From a bacterium (GTDB lineage Bacteria; Armatimonadota; Fimbriimonadia; Fimbriimonadales; Fimbriimonadaceae), in the NCBI GenBank assembly GCA_013823945.1, contig PNMZ01000004.1, positions 62,001 through 126,000 of the forward strand: a stretch of DNA of 64,000 nucleotides, given 5' to 3'. Below, one piece after another: positions 48,169 to 53,719 of this stretch. Numbering within the stretch: the stretch's first letter is position 1; the number at the start of each line of letters is the position of its first letter. The position numbers and the translations under genes are program-made. The notes beneath the pieces were generated by a model. It was not told the origin of the DNA and searched no databases. It saw nothing but the letters and a program-made list of their open reading frames with translations.

Positions 48169-49515
48169 TTAGATTGACTCGCCGTTTGATGCGATGACAT
48201 CTTTGTACCAGTAGAAACTGTCTTTGGGGGTGCGCTTTTGGGTTGCGTAGTCCACATGAACGATTCCAAACCGTTGAGAGTAGCCTTCCGCCCACTCGTA
48301 ATTGTCCATCATTGACCATTGGAAATAGCCTTCAACCGGAGTGCCGGAATCAATTGCGCGTTTGAGTCCCTTCAGATGTCGGTGAAGGTAGTCGATTCGC
48401 TGGGGATCGTGAACTTTTCCGTTGAGCATGACCCAGTCGTTGTTAGCCATTCCTGATTCAGTGATGATGATAGGAAGGTTGTAACGCTCGTGATAGAACT
48501 TTGCACCGTATTCCAGGCAGTTATCGGTGATCGGCCAGCGGATTGCGGTTTGGGGGTAACCGGCGGGGCGAGGAATATCTGCGGGGCCGGATTCGGATGC
48601 GGCGGTGATGGAACCCTGATAGATGTTCAGCCCAATAAAGTCCATGGGCTGCTTGATGATTTCTAAGTCTTGGGCGGTGGTTTTGGGCAGGTGCTCGCCG
48701 AATGCGGTGAGAAAATCTTCGGGATAGGATCCAAAGATGAGGGGGTCTGACCAGAGTGAGTTTGAAAATGGGTTTTCGGTGTTTGAGTTCCACATGCGAT
48801 CCCGAGCGGCATTGATATCGGCGGGGGTTTCGGTTGCAGGAACGCAAACGGAGCCGACAGTTGCATAGCCTATGTTTGCATTGGTTTGGTGAGCTCGAAT
48901 AACTTGGGCGGACTTGCCGTGGGCGAGCATGCTGTAGTGGGCGGCTTTCACGACTTCGGCCCAGCGGAGTTTGTCTCCGGGGGCATGGACTCCGTGGAAT
49001 AAGCCAAGTCCGATGTAGCATTGGGGTTCGTTTTGGGTGAACCAGTGGTTGACTCGGTCGCCGAGTGAAGCCACAATAGCCTGGGTGTATTCGGCAAACC
49101 AGTCGGGCGAGTGAGGACTGAGCCAACCGCCTTGGTGGTAGAGGTCTAGAGGAAAATCCCAGTGAAACAGGGTTACCCAAGGAGTGATGTCGTTGGCAAG
49201 AAGTTCATCAATTAAGTTGTTATAGAAATCCAATCCTTGTTGATTAATATGACCCGTACCGTTGGAGAATATTCTTGGCCAAGATATACTAAAACGATAT
49301 GAAGAAATACCCAGTTCTCGCATGAGAGCGATATCTTCTTTGTAGCGATGAAAATGATCGCAAGCAATGTCTCCATTATGGTTCTCAAAGCACCCGCCAG
49401 GTTTGCGTGAGAACATGTCCCAGACGCTTTGGCCGATTCCATCGGGGGTTGCAACGCCTTCGATTTGGTAGGAAGCGGTGGCGGTACCCCAGACGAAATT
49501 GGATGGGAATGACAT
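48169..49515 (-). CDS. bglA: GH1 beta-glucosidase
   Basis: 448 aa, full length and without signal peptide, so cytoplasmic. FVWGTATASYQIEG is the GH1 N-terminal signature; acid/base Glu163 is in HWFTQNEPQCYIG and nucleophile Glu353 in IIITESGMAN; YFQWSMMDNYEWAEGYSQRF binds the sugar. It should release glucose from cello- or gentio-oligosaccharides. A terminator separates it from the upstream prepilin-LacI operon, so it probably has its own promoter. With GH5 nearby it makes a plausible beta-glucan utilisation pair. Confidence 0.94.
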   Translation of the reverse strand: MSFPSNFVWGTATASYQIEGVATPDGIGQSVWDMFSRKPGGCFENHNGDIACDHFHRYKEDIALMRELGISSYRFSISWPRIFSNGTGHINQQGLDFYNNLIDELLANDITPWVTLFHWDFPLDLYHQGGWLSPHSPDWFAEYTQAIVASLGDRVNHWFTQNEPQCYIGLGLFHGVHAPGDKLRWAEVVKAAHYSMLAHGKSAQVIRAHQTNANIGYATVGSVCVPATETPADINAARDRMWNSNTENPFSNSLWSDPLIFGSYPEDFLTAFGEHLPKTTAQDLEIIKQPMDFIGLNIYQGSITAASESGPADIPRPAGYPQTAIRWPITDNCLEYGAKFYHERYNLPIIITESGMANNDWVMLNGKVHDPQRIDYLHRHLKGLKRAIDSGTPVEGYFQWSMMDNYEWAEGYSQRFGIVHVDYATQKRTPKDSFYWYKDVIASNGESI

Positions 49516-49551: not shown

Positions 49552-49578
49552 AAAAAGACCCGGCTCAGATGAGCCGGG
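49552..49578 (-). terminator. Terminator of the lipoprotein-lacI-prepilin operon
   Basis: On the minus strand CCCGGCTCA-TC-TGAGCCGGG is followed by TCTTTTTT. It lies between the prepilin stop and the GH1 start. Confidence 0.9.
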
Positions 49579-49614
49579 TTTGCGATTTGCATTTACCCTG
49601 AGAAGGCAAACTAT

Positions 49615-50513
<899 letters not shown>

Positions 50514-50517
<4 letters not shown>

Positions 50518-51589: not shown

Positions 51590-51823
51590 TTACTTGCCTC
51601 TGGTTTCTTGTGTTGTTTGAGGTTTGCCGAGCCGATCTTTCATGGCTTGTTTTTGAGCCTCTGGAATATTGAGGGAATCTATGTATTCGATGCGGCGCTG
51701 GTTGGATTCTTCGATTTCCGGTGCAGTCACAACGCGGGATTTTGACGAATCCTGGCAACCTGCGAAAAGAACGCTGGCGACCAGGATCGTGGTGATTGAT
51801 GTGAAGCAAAACTTCTTTGTCAT
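51590..51823 (-). CDS. Small lipoprotein (77 aa)
   Basis: Lipoprotein signal MTKKFCFTSITTILVASVLF with AGC lipobox (Cys23). The 54-residue mature part is polar and helical (EIEESNQRRIEYIDSLNIPE, AQKQAMKDRLGKP). It is the first gene of the operon with lacI and the prepilin, starting 15 nt after the 20-bp operator. Function unknown. Confidence 0.75.
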   Translation of the reverse strand: MTKKFCFTSITTILVASVLFAGCQDSSKSRVVTAPEIEESNQRRIEYIDSLNIPEAQKQAMKDRLGKPQTTQETRGK

Positions 51824-51837
51824 TGCGGTTCCCTTTG

Positions 51838-51857
51838 ATGATACAACGTTTTATCAT
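51838..51857. promoter_or_regulatory. LacI-type operator 1
   Basis: ATGATACAACGTTTTATCAT: 18 of 20 bases are palindromic with a central ACGT, the typical form of LacI/GalR operators. It matches the site before GH5 at 18 of 20 positions. It lies between the GH5 stop and the lipoprotein-lacI-prepilin operon. Confidence 0.8.
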
Positions 51858-51875
51858 AAATTGTGCGACTTTTTT

Positions 51876-53699
51876 TCATTTTGTAATTTTGAGGCTCCGG
51901 TAGGTGATTTTTGCCAGTTGATAATTGTCGTGGGACAGGGCAACTGGGCCAACGAGGGCTTGTTTAGGAAATCCAGGAATCGCGACTTGGTGGAGGGTTT
52001 TCCAGTTATTGCCATCGTTTGAGACTTTGGCGATGAAGAGGTCTCCCGTTCGTGAAATTTGGACAAAGAGTTTGGGTGGTGTTAGTGTGAGCTTGGGGTC
52101 GTGGGATTCGGTAATGGATCCTTCTTCAGTTCGCCATGCCACTTGAAGTTCGCCAGTGGGGAAGCTGCTGAGGAGGAAATGAGGGCTTTCATTTTCAGTG
52201 TTTGCGCGCACCATAAGGCCAGCCTTGGTGTACGTTTCGATGGACTCGATGCTTGTTATTTGAGTGGTCAAAGTGAAGTTGCCGGAGATGGATTGATGGA
52301 GGAACCGGAAGGAATCCTGGGTGGCCCATATATCGTTTCCGCCGCCATAGAGGACCACTGCGCCATTTTTGACTTCAAGTCCACCTTTGAGGGAGCCCCC
52401 GATATCCGTTACTTTCCAACCATTGAGGGTTCCTTGGGGCGCGGTTCGGCGAGGTTCAGGGACTTTGGGGAGGTTTACGAGGGGTGGGATTCTTGCGGTC
52501 AGGGCGGATCGGAGTGGTTCGTTGATCGCGTAGGGCATTGTTGAGAAAGATTTGAAGAGAGATTCAATTTCTTCTTTCGAAGCAGTGCGAATACTTAATA
52601 GAGGTAGGGGGTTTTTGTTGCCCACCATTCCCCAAGAATCTGGGCCAATGCCCCCTGAAGCTTGGTGGACTTTGTAGCTCCACATCGTTGTGTGCCAGCC
52701 GAGTTCGGCGTGTTTGTCATAGTAACGACGCATGAGTGGGCCGCCACCTACCGATTCAAAAACTACGTTCATCTCTCCAATTAGGAAGTTCGAATTGAAT
52801 CTTTTGACATCGAACTGCACTCCATCGAGGAAGCTGAGGTGCTTTGCATGGGTCAGGCGTGAAGGCTCGCTTCCGAAGAGGCCTGGATAGTAGTGCATTT
52901 GAAAGCCAACGTTATGCCAGTTATTTTCCTTTGGAGTTCCGAAGAAAGTGAACCCGTCGTAGAATCCATGGGCAAAAATCAGTTTATCAGGATCAACTTT
53001 GCGGATGGATTGGTAACACATTTCAAAGATCTCTTTGATCTTTGGATAAGTGCCGCCATACGGTTCGTTGAGGGTGTCATATGCGACAACGTTTGGATTA
53101 TCTTTGTATCGGGCGGCGATTTTTGACCAGAGCCAGGCGAGTCGCTTGGGATTTTCTGGTTCTGACCAGATTTTGTTTTGACCAGATCGTCCGGTGTGGT
53201 CGTTTGGAGTCTGTCCGCCTTGGGCTCCATGCATATCGAGGATTGTATAGATGCCGTTTTTGGCCGCTAGTTCCACGGCGTGGTCAAGCCATTTGAATGC
53301 TTCGGGTTTGAGGACGTAGGGGTTGTTGTCGTCCTCGAGGAGTCGGTAATTGATCGGAAGGCGAACGACGTTGAAACCAAAAGACTTGATGATAGGGAAG
53401 TCGCGCTCTGAAATCCAGTGAGTTCGATAGAGTTCCATCAGGCGTTGGCGCTCGTCTTCGCCGAATCGTTCGGCGAGCGTGCGTTCGATTTCGTATTGAT
53501 CAGGGAGAGGATCTTTGACATCGGTCCAGTTGAGCATCCACGGTTCGATGAGGAGCCAGTTGCCGAGGTTGACGCCTTTTAGGATAACGGGTTTGCCCTG
53601 AGGATTGAGGAGCTGGCGATCCTTTGGGGTGAGCGGTGGCAGGGTGGGTTGCGTTACGGCAAACATTGCCAGAGCGGCGGACAACAGCGTCATGAGCAT
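51876..53699 (-). CDS. Secreted GH5 endoglucanase-like enzyme with C-terminal beta-sandwich
   Basis: 607 aa. Signal peptide MLMTLLSAALAMFAV. GH5 barrel (about 25-400): LKGVNLGNWLLIEPW, FPIIKSFGFNVVRLPINYRL, YTILDMHGAQGGQTPNDHTG, acid/base Glu212 in AYDTLNEPYGG, QMHYYPGLFG, nucleophile Glu309 in FLIGEMNV. Motifs are closest to exo-beta-1,3-glucanase/cellulase members. Residues about 425-607 form a DUF1349-like lectin domain (ISGNFTLTTQITSIESIETY, KAGLMVRANTENESPHFLLS). ATG 53699 or 53693 are both possible. The LacI-type operator abuts the start. GH1 downstream could hydrolyse its products. Confidence 0.9.
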   Translation of the reverse strand: MLMTLLSAALAMFAVTQPTLPPLTPKDRQLLNPQGKPVILKGVNLGNWLLIEPWMLNWTDVKDPLPDQYEIERTLAERFGEDERQRLMELYRTHWISERDFPIIKSFGFNVVRLPINYRLLEDDNNPYVLKPEAFKWLDHAVELAAKNGIYTILDMHGAQGGQTPNDHTGRSGQNKIWSEPENPKRLAWLWSKIAARYKDNPNVVAYDTLNEPYGGTYPKIKEIFEMCYQSIRKVDPDKLIFAHGFYDGFTFFGTPKENNWHNVGFQMHYYPGLFGSEPSRLTHAKHLSFLDGVQFDVKRFNSNFLIGEMNVVFESVGGGPLMRRYYDKHAELGWHTTMWSYKVHQASGGIGPDSWGMVGNKNPLPLLSIRTASKEEIESLFKSFSTMPYAINEPLRSALTARIPPLVNLPKVPEPRRTAPQGTLNGWKVTDIGGSLKGGLEVKNGAVVLYGGGNDIWATQDSFRFLHQSISGNFTLTTQITSIESIETYTKAGLMVRANTENESPHFLLSSFPTGELQVAWRTEEGSITESHDPKLTLTPPKLFVQISRTGDLFIAKVSNDGNNWKTLHQVAIPGFPKQALVGPVALSHDNYQLAKITYRSLKITK

Positions 53700-53719
53700 A
53701 TGATACAACGATTTATCAC
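53700..53719. promoter_or_regulatory. LacI-type operator 2
   Basis: ATGATACAACGATTTATCAC, two differences from the site at 51838-51857, immediately upstream of the GH5 start. Binding would block transcription or overlap the leader. Confidence 0.78.

Follow-up and report, generated by a model that had tools for sequence, protein, structure and literature searches.

A LacI-family repressor is predicted to control two adjacent units through a pair of matched operators: its own lipoprotein-lacI-prepilin operon and the neighboring gene of a secreted GH5 glycoside hydrolase. This regulation is well supported by the comparison of related genomes, and the comparison likewise upholds the proposal, made in a preliminary description of the sequence, that the GH5, LacI, lipoprotein, and prepilin genes belong to one predicted regulon. 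Sequence comparison demonstrated that the operators are matched and specific for this LacI locus and that LacI is paired with a pilin. The full explanation that we prefer, in which LacI governs a regulon with two promoters for a single beta-glucoside polymer and the pilin captures this polymer, is in our judgment moderately probable. The window (the whole stretch of DNA analyzed) comprised 64 kb of a 3.16-Mb genome that was 99.83% complete (labeled G000).

The GH5, lipoprotein, LacI, prepilin, and GH1 genes were all on the minus strand (Table 1). By eye, the GH5 protein had a signal-peptide-like N terminus. Its relatives in the PDB included GE32 and exo-beta-1,3-glucanases, and the label glucanase follows from similarity to exo-1,3-glucanases, among others. 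Both the HTH domain (PF00356) and the periplasmic-binding-protein-like sensor domain (PF13377) of the window LacI scored over the cut-off. The closest named relative of this protein was from Armatimonadetes bacterium Uphvl-Ar1 (96% identity); most of the remaining relatives came from Fimbriimonadaceae and other Armatimonadetes MAGs. Judged by these matches, the host groups with Fimbriimonadaceae-type Armatimonadota. The lipoprotein, lacI, and prepilin genes were contiguous, with the prepilin start overlapping the lacI stop (ATGA, 50517-50514). The GH1 gene reported alongside them was present (Pfam GH1) as a neighbor beyond the terminator-like hairpin, and no operator copy was found before it in the locus examined. 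Membership of GH1 in the regulon through an operator was rejected because of the missing site and the intervening hairpin. The GH1 gene was syntenic in G078, and in G082 it preceded the lipoprotein-LacI-prepilin unit.

Table 1. Predicted features of the locus, in window positions
Feature	Positions	Strand	Basis
Operator 2, LacI-type, predicted, at GH5 promoter/start codon	53700..53719	.	18/20 match to operator 1; conservation
Secreted GH5 glycoside hydrolase, 607 aa, C-terminal DUF1349	51876..53699	-	Pfam PF00150 E 1.8e-28; PF07081 E 9.7e-9
Operator 1, LacI-type, predicted, of the lipoprotein-lacI-prepilin operon	51838..51857	.	Near-palindrome; conservation
Small lipoprotein, 77 aa, lipobox LFAGC	51590..51823	-	Sequence
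LacI-family repressor, 357 aa	50514..51587	-	Pfam PF00356 E 3.6e-12; Peripla_BP_3 E 9e-30
Prepilin-like protein, 300 aa, DUF1559-related	49615..50517	-	PF07963 E 6.3e-9
Intrinsic terminator-like hairpin closing the operon	49558..49579	-	9 pairs, 7 GC, then CTTTTTTC
GH1 beta-glycosidase, signal peptide absent by eye	48169..49515	-	PF00232 E 6.6e-145

The two 20-mers were identical at 18 of 20 positions and differed at two. By direct reading, the arms paired at 9/10 positions in operator 1 and at 7/10 in operator 2, in both cases around a central CG; the match and the near-palindromic symmetry had been claimed beforehand and were found at exactly the positions given. Operator 1 was separated from the lipoprotein ATG (51823) by 14 nt, and the GH5 ATG (53699) immediately adjoined operator 2. 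The chance expectation for the pair was a mean of 0.02 matches per dinucleotide-shuffled window. A scan of the whole genome (3,159,469 bases), which had been proposed as a check, returned just the two window sites as matches to the 20-mer with three or fewer mismatches. According to the available text of a survey of LacI regulons (PMC4052901), a typical LacI site is an even palindrome centered on CG, and most sites are located 140-30 bp upstream. Both operators had this symmetry, and operator 2 was closer to the start codon than usual LacI sites. The locus can be placed in the class of local LacI regulons because a CG-centered palindrome precedes both the unit of the regulator and the gene that it is predicted to target; like the regulons described in the available text of the survey, it would be local, autoregulated, and sugar-related, with an even palindrome and a central CG (PMC4052901). 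Neither "pilin" nor "armatimonad" occurs in the main text of that survey.

Relatives of the window LacI were present in 71/85 family genomes. Ortholog loci were defined by taking, in each of 30 genomes (that of the window among them), the match with the highest score; some of their flank maps were unreliable, with chance ORFs in GC-rich regions. A prepilin was found downstream of LacI at 29/30 of these loci (window counted). The operator palindrome was identical in G078 (LacI identity 96%) and G079 (61%); G064 (48%) had a close variant of it. For the 26 loci with LacI identity below 60%, the best matches to TGATNNAANNTTNNATCA within 450 bp upstream totaled 46 mismatches, compared with at least 101 (mean 111) in 300 dinucleotide-shuffle sets (L049, whose contig begins 150 bp upstream, was omitted); 19/26 diverged loci had two or fewer mismatches to the motif, and 7/26 had three or more. 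The site was present at both promoters in all five relatives with a same-strand GH5 gene directly upstream (G078, G079, G044, G045, and G055). Thus, the motif was conserved in relatives, contrary to the refuting condition of no further conservation named in the preliminary description. In G001, G013, G015, and G072, where a GH5-like gene follows the prepilin, no second site was found before it at one or fewer mismatches, which is consistent with one operon there. The narrower pattern TGATNNAWSSTTNNATCA occurred at 19 distinct places in eight whole genomes, 17 of which were at a window-type LacI locus, and the reversed control pattern gave 0 matches in the same eight genomes. The two matches to TGATNNAWSSTTNNATCA away from the LacI locus were at G000:C1:522325-522342 and G069:C13:302058-302075.

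In G064 (L088, G064:C5), LacI was accompanied by two operators and a divergent GH5 gene, and a prepilin was not found nearby. This locus is a natural test case of the cassette without the pilin.

The gene neighborhoods indicate that LacI-prepilin pairing is usually the rule in this group. Genome G000 contained 64 N_methyl matches vs. 5 LacI genes over the Pfam cut-off (a sixth, sub-cut-off LacI match at C3:246554, with 22.5 bits, was left out). Three of the five LacI genes had a prepilin motif less than 60 bp past the stop codon; the fourth had a prepilin 2.1 kb downstream, behind a GH13 gene, and the fifth had none. Five of the 64 prepilin matches were in LacI modules. When seven genomes were combined, a prepilin motif was found 400 bp or less downstream in 28/51 LacI genes and 3.5 kb or less downstream in 35/51, whereas 16/51 had no prepilin within 3.5 kb; several of the 51 genes were mutually orthologous, so these counts are not independent. 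The proportions within 400 bp were 3/5 in G000, 6/9 in G006, 7/15 in G015, 3/6 in G045, 2/5 in G078, 3/5 in G079, and 4/6 in G082 (one LacI, G006:C3:332444, was without a fetched region). In the TetR control from the same genomes (33 matches, 30 with loci used), a prepilin neighbor was found in 0/30.

The pairing extended to other families of the phylum. The sample comprised the best relatives of the window LacI, one per genome, and a prepilin was found within 400 bp at 18/24 LacI loci from other families (conservative count; otherwise 19/24), a proportion that may not extend to all LacI proteins because these loci are the nearest relatives of the window LacI. The script count was 19/25, with six misses, and included L248, a locus of the window's own family without a prepilin. 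Coincidence as the explanation of the prepilin neighbor was rejected on the basis of the census, the TetR control, and the other families of the phylum. Co-inheritance was assessed with 35 LacI-pilin pairs: in 126/205 comparisons with another genome, the top matches of LacI and of the pilin head fell in the same module; when pilins were reshuffled among the modules of each genome (200 trials), the mean was 43.7 and the maximum 66. At the level of sequence matches, pilins track their LacI partners, as expected under co-inheritance. In the close relative G078, the LacI of the GH2-type module (L212, G078:C1:2217216) was only about 206 residues long, and the prepilin was retained 418 bp downstream; the shortening may reflect a disrupted repressor or a mistake in the assembly.

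A lipoprotein-like small ORF adjoined the unit at 22/30 ortholog loci, and these ORFs shared, by eye, an Arg...Ile-Asp...Lys...Lys tail. The Pfam scan of module glycosidases covered 4/4 G000 modules and 14/16 other regions (L191 was omitted and L216 was without a candidate). Most of the scanned modules contained a glycosidase or carbohydrate-active domain. Of the G000 modules, one had GH5, with GH1 nearby, another had GH16 and a PfkB kinase in the neighborhood, a third had a GH2-type protein and a phosphoesterase, and the fourth had CBM48-GH13. The LacI-pilin modules of other genomes contained GH5, Glycoamylase (three cases), GH52 (two cases), GH30, GH10, GH16, and GH13, as well as a Melibiase_C protein, a BNR/sortilin-type protein, a beta-helix protein, and one protein without a match. 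Weaker cases among the 14 scanned regions were L210 (no family), L217 (beta-helix only), L204 (Melibiase_C only), L193 (BNR/sortilin-type repeats only), and L209 (GH13 on the opposite strand). Together with the census (28/51 vs. 0/30 for TetR) and the co-inheritance of pilins, these glycosidases lend support to the idea in the preliminary description that prepilin-like proteins can belong to substrate-specific glycan systems. We read the cassettes as PUL-like, with a DUF1559-like pilin that would be induced with its enzyme.

Scanning for CG-centered palindromes in five G000 regions identified, for each of the four modules, one high-scoring palindrome at the lacI promoter; in the region of the prepilin-less LacI, a high-scoring palindrome was found inside an ORF only. 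Second copies were located in the gap from ribokinase to lacI, and further copies flanked a divergent lacI/GH2 promoter. Orthologous modules retained their own motif in several, not all, genomes: the G015 amylase member, 2/5 GH2-type members, and the G015 ribokinase-group member were at or above the shuffle minimum. Three TGACCAAACnnTTGGTCA-type palindromes (L042 6870, 6973, and 6995; G000:C5, about 90.9-91.0 kb) occupied the divergent gap between a PfkB kinase gene and lacI-pilin, and this suggests that the kinase belongs to that regulon. Palindromes of the form GCGAAACGTTTCG (L043 9251 and 9398) flanked the promoter region from which lacI-pilin and a GH2-type gene diverge, and motifs resembling GCGAAACGTTTCG were also found in G078, G079, G006, and G082.

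N_methyl was matched by 24/24 aligned pilins, and the window pilin matched TIGR02532 with 32.4 bits (cut-off 16.3). The conserved Glu at +5 (E10) was invariant in the aligned pilins. Gly is usual at position -1 of the prepilin cleavage site. Position -1, the alignment column preceding the first Phe (window about 50503), was Ala in 22/24 aligned pilins and Gly in two, and the wording "prepilin-like" reflects this Ala in place of Gly. Judging from the cleavage region, processing of the window pilin by the usual peptidase is likely, not certain, and an adaptation of the prepilin peptidase to Ala is possible. DUF1559/SBP_bac_10 (PF07596) was detected in 19/24 orthologs at E ≤ 0.01 (best 4.7e-12); the window pilin matched it with E 0.003 and 18.1 bits, below the cut-off of 23.3. 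TIGR04294 (H-X9-DG) was found at three places in the genome and in 1/24 aligned pilins, and it therefore does not define the pilin family. The AlphaFold2 model of the pilin (pLDDT 83.2, pTM 0.81) had one long helix, at the N terminus (8-59), and a large head of mixed structure. Foldseek found no match to this model in the PDB with E ≤ 0.001, and the 10 rows listed by a structural aligner were all type IV pilins (Z ≤ 4.8). Glycan binding by the pilin is a probable, predicted role; its head had no confident structural match.

From these results we infer that LacI acts as a repressor until an oligosaccharide relieves the repression, that the pilin is exported and assembled, and that its head captures glycan. 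Through the operator pair, LacI would repress both the lipoprotein-lacI-prepilin operon that encodes it and the GH5 gene next to this operon. An oligosaccharide released by GH5 would probably be the inducer, as laminaribiose is for GlyR3 at celC, and under induction the small lipoprotein and the prepilin-like protein would rise in step with the secreted GH5. The single prepilin peptidase of the genome would probably cut the prepilin, which would then become part of the cell envelope or of a filament resembling a type IV pilus or a T2SS. There, its large head may capture the polymer or present it to GH5, in a role comparable to that of a surface glycan-binding protein in a Bacteroidota PUL. Cassettes of LacI, pilin, small lipoprotein, and glycosidase recur in Armatimonadota, and in many cases the operator, the pilin head, and the glycosidase are particular to the cassette. 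Points against the explanation are the 16/51 LacI genes that lack a prepilin within 3.5 kb, the G064 locus, the 7/26 diverged loci with three or more mismatches, the location of only 5/64 prepilin matches in LacI modules, the missing confident structural match of the pilin head, and the failure to notice a sugar importer in the unit. Capture is plausible in light of the available text of two reports: gold-labeled dextran was found primarily at pili-like fibers of planctomycetes (PMC5394234), and a verrucomicrobium grown on alginate over-expressed a pseudopilin, as seen with a single replicate per treatment (PMC13274419).

The main rival to glycan capture is a role in secretion. Under this explanation the regulon is real, and the prepilin is a pseudopilin that helps a T2SS-like machine to export the co-regulated glycosidase without binding glycan. 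The prepilin N terminus matched GspG and PilA models alike, the genome has four secretins and one prepilin peptidase, and the authors of the Verruconatronum study suggest, in the text available, T2SS export of alginases (PMC13274419), all of which would suit secretion. A shared machine, however, should need no separate 250-residue head for each substrate, and the pilins diverge between modules yet track their LacI partner; the GH5 and GH52 modules of G015 have the same gene order and different pilins. We regard the secretion role as unlikely. It is still harder to maintain that control by LacI is limited to its operon and GH5, with the prepilin as a translationally coupled passenger that has no glycan role. 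The overlap of the lacI stop with the prepilin start in the window and the nearly fixed lacI-then-pilin order would fit such a passenger, but the pairing recurs with unrelated glycosidases and in other families of the phylum (18/24), and amylase modules keep the pilin about 2.1 kb downstream despite the GH13 gene between lacI and pilin, which makes this explanation very improbable. That the two 20-mers are sites of another regulator or chance palindromes, as the abutment of operator 2 on the GH5 start might suggest when set against the usual 140-30 bp upstream (PMC4052901, available text), is the least credible reading and can hardly be reconciled with a motif almost confined to this LacI locus in eight genomes, with the even palindrome and central CG typical of LacI sites, and with the different, module-specific palindromes of other LacI-pilin modules.

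The preferred two-promoter regulon with pilin capture shares parts with known systems. LacI control of a GH5 gene is already known from GlyR3 and celC-glyR3-licA of Clostridium thermocellum; as in the available account of that system, the window has a LacI-family repressor beside a GH5 gene, and autoregulation is predicted here (PMC5483248). The GlyR3 system has a beta-glucan disaccharide as inducer. In the available part of the source, no pilin or lipoprotein is described for the GlyR3 operon, and celC-glyR3-licA has one promoter, whereas the window locus has two matched operators and two units (PMC5483248). DUF1559/SBP_bac_10 proteins are numerous in Planctomycetes, with 68 paralogs in Planctopirus limnophila (PMC10632474) and 74 genes in Rhodopirellula baltica (PMC2754498), as given in the available text of these reports. 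The window pilin group shares with them the Pfam family (for 19/24 orthologs) and membership in a large paralogous family; unlike the planctomycete proteins, which have no assigned function in the available text, one subset here is tied to LacI and glycosidases. The alginate cluster of Verruconatronum alginivorum has a pulG-like pseudopilin with 67 homologs in the genome, according to the available text; it belongs to another phylum, and "LacI" is absent from the main text (PMC13274419). PMC5615132 contained no mention of pilin, LacI, or secretion. No description of a LacI-pilin-lipoprotein-glycosidase cassette, and no title on the pairing of LacI with a pilin, was found in a literature search with partial coverage of subscription journals.

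In a PUL of Bacteroidota, which has SusC/SusD, a local sensor, a surface protein, and a glycosidase are co-produced for one glycan. The window locus would, by analogy, likewise bring together a local sensor, a surface protein, and a glycosidase for one glycan; unlike a PUL, it has a pilin-like protein and a small lipoprotein in the accessory places. No SusC/SusD was noticed among the ORFs read at the window and ortholog loci.

The DUF1559/prepilin-like families, which can be very large (64 N_methyl matches here and, in the available text of PMC10632474, 68 DUF1559 paralogs in Planctopirus), lack an assigned function. Members tied to LacI sensors, operators, and glycosidases would each have a predicted substrate and inducer, testable cassette by cassette. 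If true, the proposed regulon would represent a glycan-capture route for bacteria without a noticed SusC/SusD pair in the loci read. The frequent pairing of LacI with a pilin, a small lipoprotein, and a matching enzyme suggests a separate, dedicated surface pilin for each food polymer. As a tentative extension, about which we are rather doubtful, Armatimonadota may have a PUL-like system with interchangeable pilins, in which every glycan cassette would encode a LacI sensor, a DUF1559-type pilin head of its own, a small lipoprotein, and a glycosidase, and the sensed sugar would select the pilin loaded into a shared filament and fiber specificity would depend on diet.

Among the genes of the unit, none was noticed for a dedicated sugar importer. 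In G082, a single ORF of 819 aa (L192:6258-8717, G082:C25) that precedes a LacI-pilin-GH10 module matched a solute-binding protein as well as an ABC permease domain; on these domain matches, it is a possible fusion importer.
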